DNA of 37,680 nt, taken from positions 146,320-183,999 of the forward strand of contig NZ_JACDNQ010000002.1 of NCBI RefSeq assembly GCF_013839515.1, written 5' to 3'. How positions within the stretch are numbered: the first letter of the stretch is position 1; each line of letters opens with the position of its first letter. Origin of the DNA: Natronomonas salinimetallica. Its GTDB lineage: Archaea; Halobacteriota; Halobacteria; Halobacteriales; Haloarculaceae. The position numbers and the translations under genes are program-made. Positions 26,532 through 30,589 of the stretch are shown one piece after another. Below the pieces are notes generated by a model. That model saw only the letters and a program-made list of their open reading frames with translations, did no database searches and had not been told where the DNA came from.

Positions 26532-27902
26532 CTACTGGTCGGTGAGCGTGGCCTGATACGCCTTTCCCGCCACGTGGTCGGGGACGGGAAGTTTTCTCAT
26601 CACCCGCGATTGTAACCGCAGGTAGCCGTTGGCCGCCCGCTGGCAGTTGGCTTCGAACCATGCGTGGGCGTCCGGGCTGTTCAGATACGCATGGAGTGCG
26701 TGGAGGTCGTCCGGGTCGTCGGGAATGATGTAGTAGACGCTGTGGCGTGGCACGACTTCGCCGGTCTCGTCCAGCCAGAACGTCGGGTCGTCGGTGACGT
26801 CCTGACACAGAATCTTCGATTGTAATATGTCCTCCATCGGCGGGTTCTCGTGCCAGCCATACCACGGGCGTTTGTCCTTCTCGACACACGAACGGTCTTC
26901 GAGGCGGTCGCGGCGGAAACTCGCCCAGTCACCGAACGCCCCGATGTCGTCTTCGGGAGGGAGTCGACCGTCCTCACGGTACGGACAGATGAACACCTCG
27001 TCGCTGTCGGGGCCGTCGTTGATACGGAGCTGTTTCCCCGAGGTCGTCGGGTACGTCCAATCGGAGAGCTGTTCGGGGACTCCGTCGGCGTCCTGTACGA
27101 ACACGCTGTCCGCTCCCGTGGCGACGCCACAACTGACGCGCTGACACACGTCGCCCAGCGTTCGGTTCCCCGAGACGGTCAGTGTATCGCCACCACGGAT
27201 AGTGCTCGCCCAACTACTCCCGTCGGCACGCAGCGTGACGGTTTCCTCACTTCCATCGCGTCGGCGCACTCGTGTCTCGCCCGGTTCGGTGGCGTCGACC
27301 GTCGTGATGGCTGGGTACGTCGTGAAGCCGTCGAAGGCGTTCTCCTCGATGTGATGTATCCCTCCAACGTGGTAGTTCTGCCCGAGGAGACGCCGGAGCG
27401 GGGCCGCTGTCTCGGTGTATTCGAACTTCTCCGGCGTGATGAACGTCAGTCGGCCACCGTCGGCGAGCACGCTCAAAGACTGTTCGATGAACAGGATGAA
27501 CAGGTCGAACCGCCCGGTCGCTGTCTCGAACCGTTCCTTGTATTGAGTCTTTTCCTCCTCGCTCAGTCCCTCGATGGGGACATATGGCGGGTTCCCGACG
27601 ATGTAACGGAACTCGCCGAGGTCGGAGAGGTCGCCGAGGAAATCACGTTCGAGGAGGTCGACACCAGCGTCGGCGTGGGTCTCACGGGCTTCGGACAGCA
27701 GTTCGGGGTCGGTGTCCATCCCGACGCCGTCGGGAACGGGAAGCCCTCGCGTTTCGCAGTATCGCTGAACGGCGGCGACGAACGGGCCGGTTCCGACACC
27801 GGGAAAGAGAATCCGGTCGCCTTCGGACGGCGGCCTACCGTCAAATAACTTCTCGACAATTCGGTCAGCAAGTGCGGGCGGCGTCGGGACGTGACCCTTC
27901 AT
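26532..27902 (-). CDS. Adenine-specific DNA methyltransferase, Eco57I-like (modification gene)
   Basis: The 456-aa protein has motif I ILFPGVGTGPFVAAV (about residues 31-45), acidic motif II GMDTDPE, motif IV NPPY at residues 104-107 followed by VPIEGLSEEEKTQYKERF, and a FDLFILFIEQSLSVLADGGRLTFITPEKF segment. These mark an N6-adenine methyltransferase. The C-terminal half resembles TaqI/Eco57I-type target-recognition regions (VPRHSVYYIIP; LHALHAYLNSPDAHAWFEANC; LQSRVMRKLPVPD). It lies directly downstream of the broken nuclease gene on the same strand, 50 nt apart, and appears intact. It is therefore an orphan methylase of a lost restriction system. ATG 27902 is chosen because a TATA-like TTTAAATA lies about 33 nt upstream. 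A longer frame upstream would overlap the promoter. Confidence 0.92.
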   Translation of the reverse strand: MKGHVPTPPALADRIVEKLFDGRPPSEGDRILFPGVGTGPFVAAVQRYCETRGLPVPDGVGMDTDPELLSEARETHADAGVDLLERDFLGDLSDLGEFRYIVGNPPYVPIEGLSEEEKTQYKERFETATGRFDLFILFIEQSLSVLADGGRLTFITPEKFEYTETAAPLRRLLGQNYHVGGIHHIEENAFDGFTTYPAITTVDATEPGETRVRRRDGSEETVTLRADGSSWASTIRGGDTLTVSGNRTLGDVCQRVSCGVATGADSVFVQDADGVPEQLSDWTYPTTSGKQLRINDGPDSDEVFICPYREDGRLPPEDDIGAFGDWASFRRDRLEDRSCVEKDKRPWYGWHENPPMEDILQSKILCQDVTDDPTFWLDETGEVVPRHSVYYIIPDDPDDLHALHAYLNSPDAHAWFEANCQRAANGYLRLQSRVMRKLPVPDHVAGKAYQATLTDQ

Positions 27903-27927
27903 ACCCTCTGTTAGGGGCCTCGAGTTA

Positions 27928-27942
27928 TTTAAAGTTATTTGA
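27928..27942 (-). promoter_or_regulatory. TATA-like box of the methyltransferase gene
   Basis: The - strand reads AACTTTAAATAACTC about 30 nt upstream of ATG 27902, between two CTCGAG hexamers and over a GTTATTT direct repeat. It suggests that the methyltransferase can be transcribed independently of the upstream nuclease gene. Confidence 0.5.
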
Positions 27943-27952
27943 GTCTCGAGTT

Positions 27953-28100
27953 TCACTCGCGGGTGACGCCCCACTCGTTGAGGTGGTCGACGAGCCGGTC
28001 CAGTTCGTCCTGAAACACCACCGCGTGAATGTTCGCCGCGCTCGCCTTGTGAACCTCCTCGCGTAGTGCTTCGCGTCGTTCTCGTAGATTAAACTGTGTG
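27953..28100 (-). pseudogene. Restriction endonuclease gene, C-terminal fragment
   Basis: The - strand reads a 47-residue tail containing LREEVHKASAANIHAVVFQD then ELDRLVDHLNEWGVTRE, ending with TGA at 27953-27955. It has no start of its own. Its upstream edge is the 407-bp inserted element. After one GTGTG copy is removed, the frame joins exactly to the end of the fragment at 28508-29149. It ends 50 nt before the methyltransferase start. Confidence 0.8.
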
Positions 28101-28162
28101 AGAGCGTGTCATAGAAGAGTTCTCATGGTTTGCTGAATTAGCTTTGACGAGTTGAAATCGCC

Positions 28163-28177
28163 GTGCACTTGGTGCAC
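28163..28177. promoter_or_regulatory. Candidate operator upstream of the RHH gene
   Basis: GTGCAC-TTG-GTGCAC is a doubled 6-bp palindrome ending 23 nt before the ATG at 28201, where the TATA/BRE region of a leaderless gene would lie. RHH proteins bind such tandem short palindromes as pairs of dimers, so autorepression is plausible. Confidence 0.6.
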
Positions 28178-28200
28178 GCTGTTCTTAGCTTGTCGTAGCT

Positions 28201-28401
28201 ATGACGAAAGAGAAGTTCGGAGTCGCTGTTGACGAGGAAATCGTCCGAGAAGTGGATGAACTGGTCGGTGAGTGTGACGATTTCGGAGTCAGCCGCTCCG
28301 AGATCGTCGAGGCCATCCTCACAGCATTCGTTCAATCCGAGACAAACCACGTTGAACGGGTTCGAGAAATCATTATTCGGAAACGAAAAGGCACTCTCTA
28401 A
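28201..28401 (+). CDS. Ribbon-helix-helix DNA-binding protein (66 aa) inside the mini-element
   Basis: MTKEKFGVAVDEEIVREVDELV supplies the beta strand and helix 1. SRSEIVEAILTAFVQSE is the conserved second helix with its Ser-Arg-Ser-Glu cap, and the C-terminus is basic (IIRKRKG). The size and pattern are those of CopG/Arc-type repressors. It is the only gene of the 407-bp element, lies opposite to the host gene it interrupts, and sits between two nearly identical GTGCAC-N3-GTGCAC sites. It may repress itself, affect the mobilising transposase, or be an orphan antitoxin. No toxin gene is present in the element. Confidence 0.9.
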   Translation: MTKEKFGVAVDEEIVREVDELVGECDDFGVSRSEIVEAILTAFVQSETNHVERVREIIIRKRKGTL

Positions 28402-28416
28402 CTGTTTCTAAACGTC

Positions 28417-28431
28417 GTGCACCTAGTGCAC
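28417..28431. promoter_or_regulatory. Second GTGCAC-N3-GTGCAC site, downstream of the RHH gene
   Basis: GTGCAC-CTA-GTGCAC begins 15 nt after the RHH stop codon and matches the upstream site except in the 3-nt spacer. Its position after the gene is unexpected for a simple autoregulator and suggests binding toward both ends of the element. Confidence 0.6.
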
Positions 28432-28507
28432 GTATATCTAAATCAGTAATACGCTATAATAGTAATCGTACTGACTATAGCATGTGAAGAGTTCTATGAC
28501 ACGCTCT

Positions 28508-29149
28508 GTGTGACGTTAGCCACGGCCACGAACTTCGCGTCGGGGAAGTTCTCGGCGGCGGCTCGCGCCTCAGACCCGAACTCTTTGAATCGCTTCTGCT
28601 GGTCGCGCTGTTGGATGACCCGCACCTCGCCGACCACCTCATACGGTTCCTCGGTCGGAACGACAAAGTCCGGTTCGCCCGGAAGCGTGTTGCCCTTGAA
28701 GTTCGGATAGCCGTGCTCCTCGAGATACTCGCGGACGTACCCCTCGTACTTCGCCCGTTCGTGTCTCCGTTGGTCGTTCTCCCACAACTTCACGAAGGCG
28801 AACAGCACGGTTTCGAGTGTGAGGTCCCGAGGGAGAAGCTCAACAAGGGCATTTGCGAATTTGACGGCCGGTTCTTCGTCTCTGAAATCGGTTTTCCGGT
28901 CACGGAGGCTCCCGATGTTCTTCTCGCCGTACAACCGTTCGAACTCCCGGTCGGGGAGGCCAGTGATTTTCTGAAAGAGCGGCATCAGAGAGTGTGAGTC
29001 CGCCCACAACGCATCGAGAAAATCGGACGTAGTCGCTTCGCCGAAGACGACGCGCTCGTGTCCGCATTCGTCGGTCTCGACGAGGAAGTGTCGCCGAAGC
29101 GCGGTCTCGGCCTCATCGAGAAGTTCGTCCAGTTCTCCATACAGACCAG
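28508..29149 (-). pseudogene. Restriction endonuclease gene, central fragment
   Basis: The - strand reads about 213 codons with coherent protein sequence. It starts GLYGELDELLDEAETALRRH at the IS edge and continues through ADSHSLMPLFQKITGLPDRE, FDEEPAVKF-like text and PDFVVPTEEPYEVVGEVRVIQ to FVAVANVT at the mini-element. The PDFVV...GEVRV pattern resembles a PD-(D/E)xK nuclease core (with Arg where Lys is usual), and the gene precedes a DNA methyltransferase, so a type II restriction enzyme is the best guess. Both ends are cut by insertions. As it stands the frame runs 11 nt into the mini-element and stops (TAG, 28494-28496). Confidence 0.8.
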
Positions 29150-29206
29150 GTGAACTACCCCACCCTACTCGCTCACGGCTGAGGCCGTTCGTTTCCTGAG
29201 GGTAGT

Positions 29207-29255
29207 GCGGGACCTTCGGTCCCGCTGACCATGCGAACGGGCGCTTCGCGCCCGT
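29207..29255. repeat. Twin hairpin at the tnpB 3' end
   Basis: GCGGGACC-TTC-GGTCCCGC (29207-29225) and ACGGGCGC-TTC-GCGCCCGT (29237-29255) are two perfect 8-bp stems with 3-nt loops separated by 11 nt, inside the last codons of tnpB. This is the zone where TnpB guide (omega) RNA scaffolds usually end. Confidence 0.8.
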
Positions 29256-30139
29256 GAGCAGATGGGGCTTCCTGTTTCGACGACGTGACTTGCAGACACC
29301 TCTCGAAAGTCATCGGCGTCCGTAGCGGTCACAGTCTCCACAGGCGTTGATTCGGGCCATCCCAGCCCTAACTCAGCAAACCCGCGTTGCAAGACATTCA
29401 TCGCTGCATTCGCATCTCTATCCGTCTCGAATCCACACGACGGACAGGAGTGTTCCCGAACCCAGATAGGCTTCGCCGTCTCCACGCCACACCGAGCACA
29501 CTCTTTCGTCGTCCCCGCAGCTTCTACTTGAACGACGTGACAGCCGTACATGTCGGCCTTGTATTCGAGGAGCGTGATGAACTGTCGCCACGCCGCGTCC
29601 TGCTTGTTTCGGGCGTTCCCGTCGCCCTGAAGCATCCCCGTCACGTTCAAGTCCTCAACGAACACGGCATCGTACTCTGTGACGAGCCACGTCGTGATCT
29701 TGTGCTGATAGTCCAGTACCTTCCGCCGAATGTGGCGCTTGACTTTCGCTACCGCTCGGCGTTGCTTCTCGTAGTTGTTCGACCCTTCTTCCTTCCGCGA
29801 GAGTTTGCGTTGTTCGCGCTGAAGACGCTCGTACTCGTCTTCCAGCTCGAGCCAATCCACGGCAATCCCGTCAGAGGTGTGGATGTAGTTCAGGATGCCG
29901 AGGTCGATCCCGACGCTGTTGCTCGCGTCCAGCGAGTCCACGTCAGGTTTCTCGGGCAAGTCAGCCTCGTCTGTTTCGAGACCGAAGGAGACGAACCACT
30001 CGCCGGTTGTCTCCTCTTTGATCGTGACTTCTTTGATGTCAGCGTCGGCGGGGAGCTCGCGGTGATAGCGTATCTTCAGGTCGCCGATCTTGGAGAGTAC
30101 CAACGTCGCATGCCGGCCACTCGTGTTTTTGAGTTCGAA

Positions 30140-30191
30140 ACCGTCATCAGAAATCTCCGATTTCTGATTGCCCATCAGACGTAGTCTGATG
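30140..30191. repeat. 52-nt twin-hairpin insertion inside tnpB
   Basis: A 48-nt segment plus a 4-nt duplication (ACCG at 30140-30143 and 30192-30195). It contains CAGAAATC-TCC-GATTTCTG (30148-30166), a 6-nt spacer and CATCAGAC-GTA-GTCTGATG (30173-30191). Removing it restores the TnpB frame between residues SQSG and FELKN. The 8-3-8, 6, 8-3-8 layout is the same as in the solo elements at 1.6, 15.8 and 37.1 kb. Confidence 0.85.
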
Positions 30192-30589
30192 ACCGGACTG
30201 TGAAAACGTCATACTCTGGAACTCTCGGGGTGACTTCCAGTTGAGTTTCCCGACCGTGTTCCCGTTGTCTTTCTGGGCTTTCAGGTTTGAAAGGTTCTGG
30301 TAGAACCGGGTGACGGTCCGTTGCAGAGCCTTGGAGTTGACTTCCGAGAACACAGGGAACTCGTCTTTCCAGTCGGGGAGTCGGTAGTGGTGTTTGTACG
30401 CGGAGCCGATGTCGTCGGCGTCCACGTTCTCGTACTCGTACAGTGTGTAGTTGTACGCTTGGCGATGAATGTCGATATGGCGTTTCAGGTCAGCCGCTAC
30501 CTCTTGTGTCGGGGAGGCGTGGTAGCGGTGACTGTACTCCATCGCTATCTCTTGATTAGGGATATGTCTATGTAATTGTTTGTACTGGC

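Follow-up and report, generated by a model that had tools for sequence, protein, structure and literature searches.

A 405-bp transposable element in the analysed window (the whole stretch of 37,680 nucleotides from Natronomonas salinimetallica) carries a single small gene for a ribbon-helix-helix (RHH) protein between two palindromes, and with a probability of about 0.7 we interpret it as a MITE that would be mobilised in trans and would bring along its own autorepressor. The element, its ends and duplications, the partner insertion sequences (ISs), the conserved gene with its sites, and a concerted change of both were read directly from the sequence. MITEs are usually regarded as passive; here, purifying selection acts on a gene within one, and this layout of one gene plus two sites recurred with ISH11-type, ISH8-type, and other ends, so that help of a MITE-borne protein in persistence or movement becomes directly testable.

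Element Boundaries and Interrupted Host Gene

The element at 28,101–28,507 of the window proved to be real. Its core, MITEHsal2-like and with ISH11-type ends, was placed at 28,102–28,506 (plus strand) based on the sequence, the copies in the same genome, and 49 insertions collected elsewhere. It is bounded by perfect 15-bp terminal inverted repeats (GAGCGTGTCATAGAA; left, 28,102–28,116, plus strand; right, 28,492–28,506, minus strand) equal to the ends of ISH11-type ISs, and flanked by the 7-bp target duplication TGTGTGA (28,095–28,101 and 28,507–28,513), with the terminal A/T counted as target. The initial annotation had described 16-bp ends and a 5-bp duplication (GTGTG). Inverted ends and a duplication do exist, but the boundaries had been set one base off on each side; with the A/T assigned to the target, the duplication becomes longer in the window copy as well as in other copies, most of which display 6–9 bp.

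On the minus strand, the element interrupts a nuclease-like gene, with the N-terminal part (start truncated near 29,140) at 28,507–29,140 and the C-terminal part past the insertion at 27,953–28,101. Removal of the core and one duplication turned the stop-to-stop frame of 271 codons into a continuous frame of 314 codons, as had been proposed initially. A nuclease homologue from another genome of the same family (47% identity, residues 1–213 of the 214 query residues aligned) spans the insertion junction as a single open frame. Adjoining the nuclease-like gene (27,953–29,140), we observed a methyltransferase-like ORF (26,532–27,974, minus strand), and at locus L339, in a second genome of the family, similar methyltransferase-like and nuclease-like ORFs occur together without interruption. 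By eye, we identified ORFs resembling TnpB in two frames that overlap (29,165–30,542, minus strand), immediately upstream of the nuclease gene.

Copies and Distribution

The window's own genome harbors four full-length copies. While the window copy differs from the C3 copy at nine of 405 bases, the other two (L004 and L003, at G000:C23 and G000:C29) have a stop codon in the gene in common and are identical at 401 of 405 bases. Since all four differences are confined to the final 22 bases, a hybrid right end in one of the two is suggested; the shared stop codon and high identity also imply that duplication needs no intact gene in cis.

Some DNA match to the element was detected in 82 of 391 haloarchaeal genomes and a relative of the RHH protein in 49 of the 391, spread over 24 of 86 genera. 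Full-length copies are known from many haloarchaeal genera. Additional copies that share these ends and duplications, which the initial annotation had proposed to look for, were found both as the four copies in the own genome and as 49 full-length insertions in related genomes. Among the latter, duplications of 6–9 bp were found in 34, none in 10, and other lengths in five; the gene is intact in 44. Mobility of the element is thus supported by its own-genome copies, by insertions mostly flanked by 6–9-bp duplications, and by an interrupted gene with an uninterrupted homologue. A search for RHH relatives in phages and viruses found none, and phage or viral carriage of the element was therefore rejected.

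Several genera also contain derivatives of 262–264 bp that lack a working gene, and clear duplications flank some of these. Gene-less relatives with the same ends as the MITE include L045:5,910–6,171, L096:2,133–2,396, L301:428–691, L345–L351, and L356, and five genomes with such derivatives lie outside the set having an RHH match.

Partner Insertion Sequences

ISs of c. 1.06 kb (about 1,063–1,071 bp) bounded by the exact 15-bp ends of the MITE were identified, encoding a transposase of about 330 aa, so that a full-length IS with matching ends, as looked for after the initial annotation, does exist. Full-length transposases of these ISs are 71–75% identical to that of ISH11 (IS5 family), whose own ends (GAGGGTGTCATAGAA) differ from those of the MITE by one base. 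Where present, the duplications of the partner ISs have lengths of 5, 6, 7, and 9 bp. Of 20 carrier genomes, 13 encode an ISH11-type transposase; the window's genome (assembly in 30 contigs) retains only a remnant of one. The left end of the MITE equals the variant of the resident IS in two genomes (GAGCC in G079 and GAGGG in G113), whereas G317 revealed a mismatch (GAGCG in the MITE vs. GAGCC in the IS).

The element shares its ends with an autonomous IS, has duplications like those of its partner, and lacks a transposase gene, its long conserved ORF being that of the 66-aa RHH protein, in agreement with the non-autonomous transposon first proposed. Judged by the type of ends, the similar duplications, and the co-occurring transposases, it is a MITE of ISH11, most likely mobilised in trans by an ISH11-type transposase.

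RHH Gene

The gene for the 66-aa protein is located at 28,201–28,401 (plus strand). The window protein matched Pfam family PF01402 (RHH_1) with 19.2 bits (E = 0.0012), slightly below the cut-off of 20.5, and relatives exceeded it (L243, 22.9 bits; L152, 26.0 bits). The median pairwise dN/dS was 0.14 (23 copies, with pairs not independent of each other), and variable sites were distributed over the three codon positions as 19/15/49, with third positions the richest. The RHH gene is under purifying selection. Among solved structures, all matches to the RHH profile were either weak or artificial; the best from a natural DNA-binding protein was to an antitoxin (E = 0.78). In an unsystematic look for a second conserved long ORF, such as a partner toxin, none was seen, and some copies have stop codons in the antisense frame. 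A putative composite of the RHH gene with a transposase gene in genome G128 was discarded, the second gene being a 416-aa ORF of TnpB-like appearance beside the cassette.

Candidate Operators

The gene is bracketed by two GTGCAC-N3-GTGCAC palindromes, which column conservation and genome counts mark as candidate operators, namely GTGCACTTGGTGCAC on the left (28,163–28,177, −38 to −24 from the ATG) and GTGCACCTAGTGCAC on the right (28,417–28,431, 15 bp past the stop codon). In the window, this motif occurs twice vs. 0.06 expected from shuffling, and all eight exact occurrences in the 2.78-Mb genome are within the four element copies. The 12 fixed bases of each operator are conserved to 97%, compared with 81% for other non-coding columns. 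In most cassettes, the palindromes are positioned at about −38 and +216 from the start codon (−39 and +212 in ISH2). Among the matches listed for 16 other genomes, most sites were also located within such elements, and further sites inspected in relatives were mostly pieces, remnants, or variants of RHH-cassette elements. Exceptions are six sites in an unrelated repeat of genome G048, one in apparently unrelated sequence (L303), and L302 and L308, which could not be clearly placed. The G048 repeat (L290–L295) is a separate unit of about 143 bp with ends ACAGTGGTTGCTGA and the palindrome in its middle.

Based on these data, the RHH protein probably binds the palindromes as putative operators. 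Since the conserved candidate sites lie 60–75 bp inward of the element ends, binding to the ends themselves is unlikely. The early idea of a portable operator fits in part only, in that two probable operators travel with every copy. Each operator is followed by a TTYTWAG-like motif, oriented alike in both cases (window positions 28,163–28,195 and 28,417–28,445), and A/T is conserved at a distance of 13 bases from the operator centre on both sides; together they could possibly represent an extended site or a promoter element. The gene-less derivatives harbor a single operator-like palindrome (0–3 mismatches) at the expected place of the right-hand operator. We did not accept this as proof of selection, as its columns are barely above the best other windows.

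Cassettes with Different Ends and a Putative Switch of Specificity

The operator-bracketed RHH gene was found between ends of four or more kinds, and operator positions relative to the gene are nearly constant. Besides the ISH11-type, these are elements of 521, 497, and 606 bp with ISH8-type ends, elements of about 416 bp with GAGTAT-type ends and 8-bp duplications, for which we identified an IS of the IS4 family that has similar ends and likewise an 8-bp duplication, and a single 415-bp element with CACT-type ends (L259 in G235; ends CACTGGTTATCGCTTTAGC) with a duplicated right part of about 100 bp and flanks that read N. In a tree of 51 rows, based on few columns and including one spurious antisense frame (L208), the ends require four changes, the minimum for five labels. 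ISH8-type ends appear in two separate places, namely in the ISH2 group and, with L243, beside the group with ISH11-type ends, a pattern suggestive of an exchange of ends.

GTGCAC sites accompany lysine at residue 5 of the protein in 53 cassettes and arginine in one, while all seven cassettes with glutamate (E5) have TTGCAG-N3-CTGCAA at the same places. Of the 11 exact TTGCAG-N3-CTGCAA sites in five genomes, 10 are inside E5-type cassettes. By this comparison of cassettes, one clade underwent a joint switch of residue 5 (from K to E) and of the two palindromes. As the E5 cassettes form a single clade, the association is one evolutionary event and counts as one observation, not seven. A single natural switch of protein and site offers a ready test of RHH specificity.

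Proposed Mechanism and Alternatives

In the reading we prefer, the element would be a MITE of ISH11, and could just as well be called a mobile insertion cassette; an ISH11-type IS would supply its transposase in trans, and this enzyme would recognise the 15-bp ends and insert the element with 6–9-bp duplications. Inside the ends, the RHH gene, one operator just before its start codon, and a second just past its stop codon would form a self-contained module. RHH dimers would most likely occupy the two palindromic half-sites of each operator and thereby repress the gene's own promoter, cover both gene flanks, and keep every copy quiet, the two sites perhaps being paired through a DNA loop. DNA binding, autorepression, silencing or looping, and a benefit to the element are what we infer from sequence comparison.

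The same looping could serve another purpose if the RHH protein were an accessory transposition factor, with dimers on the two subterminal operators bringing the ends together and any suitable transposase being improved. This appears unlikely to us, even if the gene lies between two sites whether the ends are of ISH11 type, ISH8 type, or another type, the arms outside the operators have similar lengths within each type (about 61/75, 73/74, 106/133, 120/135, and 163/174 bp, determined by hand), and operator sites were not seen within partner ISs. The operator-to-end distance varies widely among types, transposition also occurs in elements that lack a working gene and retain no more than one operator, and duplication has happened to a copy whose gene contains a stop codon.

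Limiting transposition in trans is a common job of small regulators in mobile elements, and the initial annotation had suggested that the protein could control its own mobilising transposase. However, exact operator sites in the own genome are found nowhere outside the elements, and most further sites in relatives are element remnants or variants. Allowing up to three mismatches, no operator-like site was detected in ISH11 or in nine ISH11-type ISs, not all of which are complete (L064 and L011 have truncated transposases, and the longest ORF of L016 is unlike the others), and ISH8B with its surroundings contained only two, each with three mismatches. With no such operator in any of the ISs inspected, we rejected as unlikely that the helper transposase is repressed through it, and a role of the RHH protein as repressor of the partner IS transposase is highly improbable. 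The least probable reading, with hardly any weight in our view, would treat the RHH gene as neutral cargo, left over from a plasmid or toxin-antitoxin regulator and now decaying. Some broken copies and the Pfam match slightly below the cut-off would agree with decay. Against it stand a median dN/dS of 0.14, 44 of 49 copies intact, operators that are conserved and have changed together with the protein, and the lack of any second conserved gene among the ORFs seen; it is purifying selection that makes this reading so unlikely.

For the trans-mobilised MITE with its own repressor, autorepression alone leaves the retention of a trans-acting protein unexplained, and the gene-less derivatives, the stop-codon duplicates, and the helper present only as a remnant in the own genome count against it. 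More tentatively, and at somewhat less than even odds, the operator-bracketed repressor may be a transferable module built into MITEs of several transposase families, which it would aid by silencing or end-pairing while repressor and operators co-evolve.

Comparison with Known Elements

For MITEHsal2 of Halobacterium salinarum 91-R6, lengths of 413 bp with 8-bp and 411 bp with 6-bp duplications are listed (PMC10264941, Table A2), and subtraction of the duplications results in a core of 405 bp. As plasmid pHSAL2 of the same strain carries the window's element (L157), the latter is most probably the published MITEHsal2, judged by length and plasmid copy rather than base by base. The tabulated account of MITEHsal2 differs in giving neither a gene nor operators.

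ISH11 shares with the element its 15-bp ends, apart from one base, and duplications of similar length, but encodes its own transposase and has neither the RHH gene nor the operator. Duplications of 6, 8, and 9 bp are listed for it (PMC10264941).

A further likeness is found in ISH2 of Halobacterium, a transposase-free 521-bp MITE with one small RHH gene and GTGCAC-N3-GTGCAC on both sides, which differs in its ISH8 (IS4 family) ends and 10-bp duplications, compared with ISH11-type ends and 7 bp in the window. ISH2 has been known since 1983, and we take protein VNG_0210H to be its RHH ORF. This ISH2-element protein was detected by mass spectrometry (PMC10134880), ISH2 is listed as a MITE with ends related to ISH8 (PMC10264941), and ISH2-type MITEs were described to contain a non-transposase ORF (PMC3119063). 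Since the ORF of ISH2 is a relative of the window RHH protein (52% identical), a lone RHH regulator as cargo, initially called unusual, is not unprecedented, and the module could provide a function for this long-unexplained ORF. Mobile insertion cassettes such as MIC231 resemble the element in having IS ends around passenger DNA and being mobilised in trans (PMC3129680, PMC2266710), while the cargo here is an RHH gene between probable operators. An RHH gene bracketed by two palindromes, across relatives with different ends, appears to be previously undescribed.
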